DNA of 46,737 nt from an uncultured Anaerolineales bacterium (lineage in GTDB: Bacteria > Chloroflexota > Anaerolineae > Aggregatilineales > Aggregatilineaceae), in contig CAKZOB010000047.1 in the NCBI GenBank assembly GCA_937135955.1, positions 1 to 46,737 on the forward strand, given 5' to 3'. The position numbers were made by a program, and so were the translations under genes. Each line of letters starts with the position of its first letter. Positions within the stretch are counted from its first letter, which is position 1. Positions 766 to 6,866 of the stretch are shown one piece after another. A model generated the notes under the pieces. It saw only the letters and a program-made list of their open reading frames with translations. It had not been told where the DNA came from and did not search any database.

Positions 766-2058
766 CTATGACCCCTCGTGCTCGGCCTCTAGTACAGTCT
801 GCGCCACCAACTGTGCTACCAGCCGGTTACCCGCTTCGTTCCAGTGAGGATCGGAATAGTTGTAGAACTCCGTGCCTTCCGTCATTGTGCGCCACCAGAT
901 TTCGCCCGTCAGGTTGAGCAGGCGGATATGATTCGCCGCCGCGAACTCCTCCACCAACTCCATCTGATCGTCCACGATGTCCGTGAATTCCTGATAGCTC
1001 AGCAACGGCACGGTCAGTTCCAGGAAGTGCCCGATGTCCACCGGATCCCAGATGCGGCTCCAGTAGAGATGCTCCTTGGCGGGCACGAAGACCAGCAGGA
1101 AACGCGCGCCCTGCGCCTCGACCTCATCGCGCAGAGACAGAATTGCCTGGGTGGCGCGCTGCCATTCCCACGAGCGCAAGATTTGCTCGCGCGACCAGCT
1201 TAGCTGTGCAATGTGCGTGTGGAAGAAGACTGTCTGGAAGTGATGCACATTGGTGGATACGGTCATGGGGAAGCGGCACACCTTCGGCTGCGGACGCACC
1301 AGGTGCCACAACGAATCCGCCCAGAAGCGCAGCATATGCGGCATGATCAATCGCTCCGGCGGGCTGACCAGGTGCAACTGATAGGTGCGCCAGTCCAGGC
1401 CGGACTCGCGGCGGCGGGTGTATTCGCCCACCTCGAACAGGTCGTTGCCCTCGAAGTAGGTCATCACCACCCAGCGCGGCGATTTGTCCAGCCCATACTG
1501 ACGCACAGCTTCCACCTGCGCCAGCGGCCCCCAGCCCTCCATGCCCAGGTTGAGCACGCTCATGCCGGTTTGTTCGCCCAGCAAATCGATCCACCACACA
1601 GGCGCAAAATTGCCGGTGAACGAATCGCCGGTGACAACGATGTCGTAGTGATCGCGCCAGGGCGACTCGTTGCCCACAAAACCGTGATCGTCGGCGCGCA
1701 CTACGTAATGAAAAGTATGGTCAGGGATGTCTCCGCAGGTGGCCTCTCTGGCGTTGATCACATTGGGATCGGCGGGATTCCAGGGGCCGTCGTAGGTGTA
1801 GCCGGGCTTGAACGTGTAGCCCAGCCGCAGCGGACGGTCGTAGACACGAAAGGCGCTCTCGCAATAGGCGTGCGCCAGAGTCAGCGAAGAGCGACACGCT
1901 TCCAGCGGGATGAACTGCGGCATCAGGCGGAAGCCGATTTCCAGCGCCATCAGCGTCGTCAGAATGCTGAGCAGGGCAATGGCCAGGGCACGCGCCCAGC
2001 GCAGACGCACGCGTGGGAGTTGCCTTGTCTGCACGGTGGTCGGAGATTGCGCTGTCAT
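766..2058 (-). CDS. Membrane-anchored SGNH/GDSL hydrolase-like protein
   Basis: This is a probable esterase or acyl-group hydrolase of the SGNH fold, about 430 aa. A single hydrophobic segment near residues 25-42 should anchor it in the membrane with the catalytic domain outside. Three family blocks are visible in order: GDSFTG (block I, nucleophile Ser), EGND (block III, Asn) and DPHWNEAGN near the C-terminus (block V, Asp and His). Such proteins often remove or add acetyl groups on exopolysaccharides, but the substrate cannot be read from the sequence. I chose the ATG at 2058 because AGGTGAT lies just upstream; GTG 2070 and ATG 2067 are in-frame alternatives. It is the second gene of a minus-strand pair with the hydrolase starting at 2781. 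Confidence 0.75.
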   Translation of the reverse strand: MTAQSPTTVQTRQLPRVRLRWARALAIALLSILTTLMALEIGFRLMPQFIPLEACRSSLTLAHAYCESAFRVYDRPLRLGYTFKPGYTYDGPWNPADPNVINAREATCGDIPDHTFHYVVRADDHGFVGNESPWRDHYDIVVTGDSFTGNFAPVWWIDLLGEQTGMSVLNLGMEGWGPLAQVEAVRQYGLDKSPRWVVMTYFEGNDLFEVGEYTRRRESGLDWRTYQLHLVSPPERLIMPHMLRFWADSLWHLVRPQPKVCRFPMTVSTNVHHFQTVFFHTHIAQLSWSREQILRSWEWQRATQAILSLRDEVEAQGARFLLVFVPAKEHLYWSRIWDPVDIGHFLELTVPLLSYQEFTDIVDDQMELVEEFAAANHIRLLNLTGEIWWRTMTEGTEFYNYSDPHWNEAGNRLVAQLVAQTVLEAEHEGS

Positions 2059-3020: not shown

Positions 3021-3092
<72 letters not shown>

Positions 3093-4615: not shown

Positions 4616-5505
4616 GAGTTTCCTCCTGACCCGGTGCGTCGTGGACGCAGATAGACAAACCAGTACACAAGCGCTACCAGAACGGCACCTCCGATGATAT
4701 TGCCTAGAGTGACGGGTAGCAGATTCTTGAGCAGAAAATTGCCAACCGTCAGCGCGGACAGATTGAGGTCCGCTGCGTGGGCGCTCACCCAATCCCCCGC
4801 CAATTCCTGGATGGCCAGCCCCTGCCCGACGAAGTACATATTGGCCACGCTGTGCTCAAAACCAGCCGCCACAAAGCCGGTGATGGGAAAGAGGATCGCC
4901 AGAATCTTGTCGGTGGTGCTGTGCGCGCTGAAGGTCAACCACACGGCCAGGCACACCATAGCGTTGCACATAGTGCCCGAGGCCACCGCCTGCCCAAAGC
5001 CCAGATCGCACTTGGCAGTGGCAATGCTCAGCGCCGTGCGCCCGACTTCGGCCCCTGGGGGACCGAAGGTGTATTGCTTGGCCAGAAACACCAATATCAC
5101 TGTTCCCAGCGCGCCGGTGAAGTTGCCCAGATAGACGATCGCCCAGTTGCGCAGTAGCGCTCGTGTGCTCACGTCCCCTGCTGCCCAGGCCATGACGATC
5201 AGCGTGTTGCCGGTGAACAGCTCCGCGCCAGCTACAATGACGAGAATCAGGCCCAGGCAGAAGACCAGACCGGTTAACAGACGGCTCAGACCGTACGGTA
5301 TACCCCCGCCAGCGGCGACCGACGTGGCGAAGACAGCGCCCAGGCTGATAAACGCCCCCGCCAGCACCGCCAGGGTGAACATAGTTACCGTGTCCATCCT
5401 GGCCTTGGACGCGCCCACAGTTTCGGCCTGCCGGGCCATTTCTGCCGGAACAAGCGCATCAATTCTCAGAGGCTGCTGCACGGCCCCCTCGCTTATCAAG
5501 CCCAC
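4612..5505 (-). CDS. focA: FocA-type formate/nitrite transporter
   Basis: This is an integral membrane channel of the FNT family (formate, nitrite or hydrosulfide), about 297 aa with six predicted hydrophobic segments. The first FNT signature is seen in G-L-S-R-L-L-T-G-L-V-F-C-L-G and AGAELFTGN, and the second region in FEHSVANMYF, with the pore His inside FEHS. Family members form pentamers and move monovalent anions with or without a proton. With a Wood-Ljungdahl cluster 11 kb away formate is the likely substrate, but selectivity cannot be read. The start is uncertain: GTG 5505 is the longest form, and GTG 5481 has a better ribosome site (GAGGGG). It is coupled to the RAM protein by a 4-bp overlap. 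Confidence 0.88.
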   Translation of the reverse strand: MGLISEGAVQQPLRIDALVPAEMARQAETVGASKARMDTVTMFTLAVLAGAFISLGAVFATSVAAGGGIPYGLSRLLTGLVFCLGLILVIVAGAELFTGNTLIVMAWAAGDVSTRALLRNWAIVYLGNFTGALGTVILVFLAKQYTFGPPGAEVGRTALSIATAKCDLGFGQAVASGTMCNAMVCLAVWLTFSAHSTTDKILAILFPITGFVAAGFEHSVANMYFVGQGLAIQELAGDWVSAHAADLNLSALTVGNFLLKNLLPVTLGNIIGGAVLVALVYWFVYLRPRRTGSGGNS

Positions 5506-5639
5506 GAACCGAACTGGTGTGCAGATCAGACAAACGATGTATGCCGAACCCGCTATGTCTACTCAGATCATACGGAAGCGCCACACCGCGTATAGGGACA
5601 ATGCTCCACCCTCTGGCTGCGAGTTGTCCTGATTCTGCC

Positions 5640-5668
5640 TTTACAGCCCCGGCGAAGCGTGGTATAAC
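5640..5668 (+). promoter_or_regulatory. Promoter of the candidate structured RNA
   Basis: TTTACA (5640-5645) and TATAAC (5663-5668) are separated by 17 bp. The predicted start is near 5675. Confidence 0.6.
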
Positions 5669-5674
5669 GATGCT

Positions 5675-5881
5675 ACCCTGCCGTGCCCGTGATCCGCACA
5701 TCGGTTTTGAGCCAACACCCACACATGGGGTACCGAGGTCGTGACACGGACGCATTAGGACTTGTCCAAAGCGGAAGTGTGCGCTAGGTGCCCACCTGCG
5801 AAAGCAGGTTCAAAACATAGCGGCACACGGCATGGCGGGAGGTCTTATCCCGCGCCCGGCACCTCTTGCCGGGTGTTTTTT
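5675..5881 (+). ncRNA. Candidate structured ncRNA with 6S-like architecture, own promoter and terminator
   Basis: This is a ~205-nt transcript between a good promoter and a good terminator, without a convincing ORF. The ends close on each other: 5676-5691 pairs with 5826-5839 (14 bp: CCC, GCC, GTGCC and GTG with their complements, two single-base bulges). Inside lie a TCGGT/ACCGA arm, and ACCTGC-GAAA-GCAGGT with a GNRA tetraloop within a GTGTGC/GCACAC arm. The 3' strand of the closing stem can instead pair downstream (GCGGGA/TCCCGC), giving two exclusive folds. The terminator is CCCGGCA-CCTCT-TGCCGGG plus a T run (5855-5881). A long closed hairpin of this size resembles 6S RNA, but no conserved sequence confirms it. 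I found no SRP, tmRNA or RNase P core motifs. Confidence 0.45.
5855..5881 (+). terminator. Terminator of the structured RNA
   Basis: The stem CCCGGCA (5855-5861) / TGCCGGG (5867-5873) has a 5-nt loop and is followed by TGTTTTTT. Confidence 0.8.
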
Positions 5882-5942
5882 CGCCTTTATCACCCCCCAT
5901 TGTCTTACATCTATTCACCCGTATTACAAAACGGGTAAAGTC

Positions 5943-5971
5943 TTGATTCCCGCCAGTCAAAAGGCTATACT
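5943..5971 (+). promoter_or_regulatory. Promoter of the MBL-fold hydrolase gene
   Basis: TTGATT (5943-5948) and TATACT (5966-5971) are 17 bp apart. The predicted 5' leader is about 43 nt. The hydrolase therefore has its own promoter and need not depend on read-through from the upstream RNA. Confidence 0.7.
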
Positions 5972-6020
5972 GAGCGCACCTTGTGCCTCACCGTAACCCA
6001 GACCAGGGACACAACGAACG

Positions 6021-6866
6021 ATGCAGCGAGAACGGGTCGCCGATGATATTTATGTGTTCACCAGCGAACTATATGCTCAGGTTACTGCTGGTGCTGTCAT
6101 CACCTCCGAGGGTGCGATCCTGATAGACACACTGGTCTTCCCAGAAGAAGCGCGTGCCATCAAGCACTTCGTTGAAAACCGGCTGGGCTGCCCGGTGCGC
6201 TACATCATCAACACGCACTATCACGCCGACCATACTTACGGCACCTGTTTTTTCCCCGACGCGCAGGTGATCGCGCACGCGCGGTGCTATGAACTGCTCG
6301 ACACGCGCGGGCGTCAGGGCCTGGCCATCGCTCAGCAGAACAGCAGCGAGCTGCGCGATGTCAGCATCGTGCTGCCGCATCTGGTCTTCGATAGCGGCAC
6401 GCTCACCCTGCACCTGGGCAACAAGACGGTCGAGTTGCGGCACTCGCCCGGCCACAGCCCGGACTCCATCGTATGCCTGGTGAAGGAAGATCGCGTGCTG
6501 TTCGCCGCCGATACGTTGATGGCCCTGCCCTACTTTGTGGACGGGAGCTACGAGGACTTCGTGAACAGCCTGCATGCCCTGCAAAACGGCGGGTTCGAAA
6601 ACGTGGTACAGGGACACGGGGAAGTAGTGCTGCGCGGCGAAGTCGAGGAAGTCATTCAGTCCGACCTGAACTATCTGGCAATCATTCGCCGTCACGTGGA
6701 AGCGGCGCTCGAACGGGGCAAGCCGCCGGAAGCACTCACCGGCATCTCCATTGAGTCCTGCGGCAAAAGCCGCATTCCGCTCAATGGCTTGGTGCAGGAG
6801 CTTCACCAGGCCAATCTACGCGCGCTCTATCGCGAGCTGTCGGCGCAGCGGCGGGGCCGTGTCTGA
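6021..6866 (+). CDS. MBL-fold metallo-hydrolase
   Basis: This is a 281-aa cytosolic metallo-beta-lactamase-fold protein. The metal motif is THYHADHT (H-x-H-x-D-H), followed by the ligands S-P-G-H-S-P-D, A-A-D-T (Asp) and QGHGE (last His). It resembles the glyoxalase-II/SoxH-like hydrolases, which act on thioesters or similar compounds. A C-terminal helical tail (from about residue 210) may take part in substrate binding or dimerisation. The exact substrate is unknown. It is a single gene with its own promoter; downstream lies intergenic repeat copy B. Confidence 0.85.
   Translation: MQRERVADDIYVFTSELYAQVTAGAVITSEGAILIDTLVFPEEARAIKHFVENRLGCPVRYIINTHYHADHTYGTCFFPDAQVIAHARCYELLDTRGRQGLAIAQQNSSELRDVSIVLPHLVFDSGTLTLHLGNKTVELRHSPGHSPDSIVCLVKEDRVLFAADTLMALPYFVDGSYEDFVNSLHALQNGGFENVVQGHGEVVLRGEVEEVIQSDLNYLAIIRRHVEAALERGKPPEALTGISIESCGKSRIPLNGLVQELHQANLRALYRELSAQRRGRV

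Follow-up and report, generated by a model that had tools for sequence, protein, structure and literature searches.

A locus identified with high confidence as a 6S RNA gene in a bacterium of the Anaerolineae (Chloroflexota)

We have studied a stretch of 46,737 nt from an uncultured Anaerolineales bacterium (contig CAKZOB010000047.1 of assembly GCA_937135955.1), which will be called the window. In the whole window Rfam 15 gives three matches over the gathering score: two tRNAs and a 6S RNA. The tRNA genes are tRNA-Pro(CGG) at 349–424 on the minus strand and tRNA-Gly(GCC) at 3021–3092 on the plus strand. The 6S match is found on the plus strand at 5672–5845. Upstream of it, on the minus strand, there is a gene for a formate/nitrite transporter (Pfam PF01226). 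The gene downstream, at 6021–6866 on the plus strand, codes for a hydrolase of the metallo-beta-lactamase fold (PF00753).

The signals expected for a separate transcript surround the match. The promoter (5640–5668, plus strand) can be read directly: TTTACA at 5640–5645, a spacer of 17 nt with TGG before the -10 hexamer, and TATAAC at 5663–5668. It is kept in the homologues described below, since TTTACA-17-TATAA is present upstream of 24 out of 30 and two more have a spacer of 18 nt; exact strings were searched, so that near misses are uncounted. The promoter is absent from the list of a simple promoter scan, because the scan demands T as the last base of the -10 hexamer. Judging from the promoter, the true 5' end is probably at about 5674–5677. 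On the 3' side an intrinsic terminator is apparent both in the sequence and in the fold, with a stem-loop at 5852–5876 (plus strand) and then a T run to about 5882. As for reading frames, none of the four small ORFs which overlap the RNA has a Pfam match at E 0.001. A frame free of stops over the RNA is found on the plus strand in 10 of the 30 homologues (eight in one frame, two in another) and on the minus strand in 8, while the lengths of the homologues spread over all three classes modulo 3. A protein-coding reading is rejected on these grounds: there is no Pfam match in the four ORFs and no consistent open frame among the homologues. An earlier note on this DNA had described a transcript with this same promoter, a strong terminator and no ORF, and these elements are all confirmed. 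A size of about 150–240 nt, a promoter, a terminator and the lack of a reading frame are the marks of an independent gene, and all of them are present here as signals in the sequence.

The nature of the RNA is given by the covariance model of 6S RNA, RF00013, which matches 5672–5845 from end to end (model positions 1–187 of 187). The score is 72.3 bits, 26 bits above the gathering score of 46.4, with E = 1.9e-12 in the search of the whole window. No other family among the 4227 compared is over its gathering score at the locus. The only other Rfam match up to E 10 in the region 5400–6100 is anti-hemB, placed mainly on the terminator, with 14 bits against the 49.5 required. The locus shares with the family (6S or SsrS RNA) the full-length match, a long closing arm, a central bubble, an apical arm and its own promoter and terminator. 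It differs from the RF00013 consensus by small gaps, mostly in the apical arm, and no feature excludes membership. The earlier note had remarked that size and shape resemble 6S RNA, and the end-to-end match bears this out; it had also called the RNA unassigned and without a family motif, which is wrong, as the match is over the gathering score. We consider it very nearly certain that we have here ssrS, the 6S RNA gene of this Anaerolineae (Chloroflexota) bacterium. What appeared as a structured RNA without assignment is settled as a standard 6S regulator. The size range quoted for 6S RNA in the cited part of PMC7726162 is 153–237 bp, and the same source attributes 6S genes in Chloroflexi to Wehner et al. 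2014. Our literature search with the terms Chloroflexi, Chloroflexota and Anaerolinea found no title on a Chloroflexota 6S RNA. Given the plain Rfam match and this published mention of 6S in Chloroflexi, the locus represents a known family in its ordinary form and not a new class of RNA.

The minimum free energy (MFE) fold of 5672–5882 has a closing stem, a central bubble and an apical arm. This rod, with its large central bubble, is backed by the MFE and consensus folds and by comparison. The fold is more stable than all 200 dinucleotide shuffles, both for the match 5672–5845 (z -3.74) and for the transcript 5672–5882 (z -4.44). All parts are on the plus strand. The closing helix P1 is formed by 5677–5691 and 5826–5839, in the MFE and consensus folds and in the pairing of the homologues. 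It has 14 pairs, as the earlier note had proposed, with one base unpaired in the 5' strand, which is 5688 in the MFE folds and 5687 in the consensus of the 30 homologues. Helix P2 pairs 5704–5713 with 5807–5816, and 99.7% of its cells are paired in the 30 homologues. Within its 3' strand G5807, G5808 and U5809 have second possible partners in a hairpin on the 3' side of the central bubble, ACCUGC-GAAA-GCAGGU at 5794–5809, whose six pairs we discuss below. The core of this hairpin, CCUGC-GAAA-GCAGG at 5795–5808, is conserved; it is the inner GNRA hairpin already recognised from the window sequence, and its pairs can form in homologues. The apical arm extends over 5728–5793, according to the Rfam alignment, the MFE fold and the pairing of the homologues.

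Comparison of relatives for covarying pairs, a check proposed in the earlier note, was carried out on 30 sequences: the best-scoring among 50 matched genomes, with the copy of the window (L001) included and the 20 weaker ones left out. The 29 other copies have 62.0 to 99.4% identity to the RNA of the window. The structure tested is the Rfam family structure mapped on the window sequence, which is itself one of the 30 aligned. Standard pairs are found in 83.8% of cells, against 79.9 ± 0.5 in shuffles, and fall to 32.5–44.2% when the partner is slid. In shuffles that ignore relatedness, none out of 500 reached the observed covariation score (0.197, against 0.132 in shuffles) or the number of cells changed on both sides (94 against 50.5). 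Two coarser measures are only slightly higher than in these shuffles and not clearly above them. Pairs changed on both sides number 19 (17.0 in shuffles), a value reached by 60 of the 500; further pair types number 63 (59.4 in shuffles), a value reached by 63 of the 500. Most double changes fall in the apical arm. In its main helix 11 of 16 pairs are changed on both sides in some sequence, and 75.1% of cells are paired. P2 is nearly invariant and the inner closing stem hardly varies in the 30 homologues; at the outer end of the closing helix in the model, the last four pairs fail in 11 to 24 sequences.

The gene is conserved in related Chloroflexota. Among 61 genomes (that of the window and 60 relatives), 50 have an RF00013 match at E ≤ 0.001, and 48 of these exceed the cut-off. 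In wider samples matches are found in 239 out of 298 genomes of the class (223 above the cut-off) and in 95 out of 400 genomes of the phylum (75 above it). These three runs used stricter filters, which lose weak matches. A clade model, built from 30 of the 50 matched copies, finds 52 of the 61 genomes, so that those with no 6S match go down from 11 with Rfam to 9. The clade model thus recovers a 6S candidate in two of the 11 genomes blank by Rfam (G037 with 37.4 bits and G045 with 60.7 bits, both missed by Rfam with the strict filters). Since Rfam missed these two, absence of 6S in other Chloroflexota judged by Rfam alone is uncertain. The 93 contigs of the genome of the window have no second match, either with Rfam or with the clade model at E up to 1, so we rejected the presence of a second copy. 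Seven other genomes of the class have two 6S matches each (G092, G124, G150, G169, G172, G187 and G291), and five of the seven are from a single family (f40). These double matches may be paralogues, like those of Bacillus, or may come from contamination or from a mixture of strains.

Relatives were also collected through the protein of the downstream gene. Among the best 80 of 444 the nearest is that of Anaerolineales bacterium UBA2029, with 98% identity. These 80 come from MAGs labelled Anaerolineae, Anaerolineales, Anaerolineaceae, Anaerolinea, Thermoflexus, Ardenticatenia or its subgroups, Aggregatilineales, Chloroflexi, Chloroflexota and, in one case, Bacteroidetes. Judging from these relatives, the window would come from the Anaerolineae. 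Gene order was scanned in 40 of these best 80 loci; one of the first 20 (L038) has too little upstream DNA for the RNA to fit in.

The position of the RNA just before the metallo-beta-lactamase-fold gene raises the question of whether it is a cis-acting leader of that gene, a riboswitch or an attenuator. The scan gives this reading its support: among the 20 nearest protein relatives, 14 have a 6S gene upstream in the same orientation. However, none of the next 20 relatives has it there, and in another family of the order a proline tRNA gene follows the RNA in 7 of 8 genomes. The neighbourhood changes while the RNA stays, which fits an independent gene. Furthermore the transcript stops at its terminator, near 5882, and a separate promoter-like site, of a kind expected 0.5 times by chance, is present at 5943–5971. 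The model that matches is also that of 6S RNA and of no riboswitch. The terminator, the separate promoter-like site and the changing neighbours speak against a leader, which we reject as extremely improbable. A different proposal, put forward in the earlier note, is that of a distinct, unassigned regulatory RNA, in which the 3' closing strand could leave the long stem and form a hairpin further downstream instead. Both elements of this hairpin are indeed present: GCGGGA at 5835–5840 can pair with UCCCGC at 5848–5853, and the small hairpin (5835–5853, plus strand) has by itself -11.6 kcal/mol. Yet in the transcript it appears as a minor state, since a fold forced to contain it is less stable by 5.2 kcal/mol (-90.8 instead of -96.0). 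The pairs of this hairpin have probabilities of no more than 0.025, against a rounded 1.0 for the closing-stem pairs 9–165 to 14–160 (numbered from 5672).

Comparison leads to a similar view of this switch. The alternative is intact in four of the five members of the genus; in the fifth (L008) its helix is broken by a two-base bulge, and at none of the 25 loci outside the genus does the MFE fold of the same segment have it in that register. If any register is accepted, at least five pairs between the closing strand and the tail are possible in all five members of the genus and at 12 of the 25 loci outside it, but shuffled tails give as many (4.4 and 13.9 expected). When the whole transcript is folded, the closing strand pairs downstream with a mean probability no higher than 0.09 in 27 out of 30 homologues. 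The three exceptions, where the strand is predicted to pair partly downstream to an extent that is not negligible, are L011 (0.19), L021 (0.39) and L017 (0.56): they belong to the same family or order as the window and are among the 25 loci outside the genus. With the RNA placed by Rfam in the 6S family, we find the proposal of a distinct switching RNA very improbable. From constrained folding, comparison and the shuffle control we reject a downstream-pairing switch as the main function of the RNA: it is energetically minor, its register is lost beyond the genus and it does no better than shuffled tails. The GCGGGA/UCCCGC pairing would be a minor possibility with no shown selective value. The idea of two exclusive folds, as formulated in the earlier note, finds no support in this downstream pairing; it may instead apply to the central bubble, to which we return below.

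The tRNA arrangement mentioned above is found in family f8, of the same order, where seven genomes (L025, L027, L111–L114 and L116, but not L115) have a tRNA-Pro(TGG) gene after the 6S gene and in the same orientation. Five of these seven are from one genus. In L025 the two genes abut (6S at 1501–1675 and tRNA at 1427–1501, minus strand), in L116 they are separated by 2 nt and in the other five by 44–48 nt. A joint transcript cut by the tRNA-processing enzymes would explain this arrangement; no title on joint 6S RNA-tRNA transcripts was found in the literature searched.

We turn now to the function of this 6S RNA. Such RNAs imitate an open promoter and hold RNA polymerase. The steps given here are drawn from established 6S RNA biology, and for this locus we infer expression, polymerase binding and synthesis of a product RNA (pRNA). 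Under nutrient shortage the rod would mimic an open promoter and occupy the holoenzyme of RNA polymerase with the housekeeping sigma factor. When nucleotides return, the polymerase would use the 5' side of the bubble as template for a short pRNA that starts opposite C5716. As it grows, the pRNA would open helix P2; the 3' strand of the helix, now free, would lengthen the GNRA hairpin on the 3' side of the bubble, and the 6S RNA would then come off the polymerase.

The template of the pRNA is predicted at 5702–5716 (plus strand), both from its likeness to the pRNA of Bacillus subtilis 6S-1 and from a conserved motif. The predicted product is GUUGGCUCAAAACCG, which begins GUUGGCUC. At the template the motif GTTTTGAGCCAAC is present in 27 of the 30 homologues, and the conservation of GUUUUGAGCCAAC in these 27 makes a start opposite C5716 likely. 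The pRNA of B. subtilis 6S-1 is given as GUUCGGUCAAAACUA in the cited part of PMC12005410; by hand count it agrees with our prediction, made here from the sequence alone, in 11 of 15 positions.

The possible consequences of pRNA synthesis for the central bubble were followed in predicted folds with the predicted template blocked. In the RNA of the window the GNRA hairpin then grows from three to six pairs with the bases freed from P2; with a shorter block (positions 36–45) the RNA refolds globally and the six-pair hairpin is kept. Blocking the template lengthens the hairpin in 23 of the 30 folds. In 6 of the 30 the hairpin already has five or six pairs in the free fold, and in one it does not form; P2 is complete in the free fold in 22. 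The hairpin can form with its full six pairs in 26 homologues and with five or more in all 30, and all 30 can also form the three competing pairs of P2. Since each of the shared bases has a conserved possible partner both in P2 and in the extended hairpin, these two may be the pair of exclusive folds. According to these predictions the central bubble would be a better-supported alternative fold than the downstream switch.

These features can be compared with the two model systems. In B. subtilis 6S-1, according to the cited part of PMC8876501, a smaller hairpin of the 3' central bubble pre-exists in the free RNA; a central bubble collapse helix forms, with no extended hairpin, and release is made harder when the 3' bubble carries an extra hairpin. 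The Anaerolineae RNA would resemble it by the small hairpin, which is predicted in the free RNA. It would differ in that blocking P2 lengthens the hairpin in our predictions, and, as an extra hairpin hinders the release of 6S-1, the release step may differ here. It would share with the E. coli type of 6S RNA that the 3'-bubble hairpin becomes longer once the 3' strand of P2 is set free, as the same part of PMC8876501 describes for gamma-proteobacteria. It would differ from the E. coli type in that the hairpin has six pairs and a GNRA loop, with half of these pairs predicted already in the free RNA. A tentative scheme, which we consider rather unlikely as it stands, is that the 6S RNA of Anaerolineae combines a pRNA start like that of B. 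subtilis with a release like that of E. coli, so that G5807, G5808 and U5809 would pass from P2 to the hairpin during pRNA synthesis. If such a bubble switch is true, this would be a Chloroflexota 6S RNA with a release mechanism between those of the two model systems.
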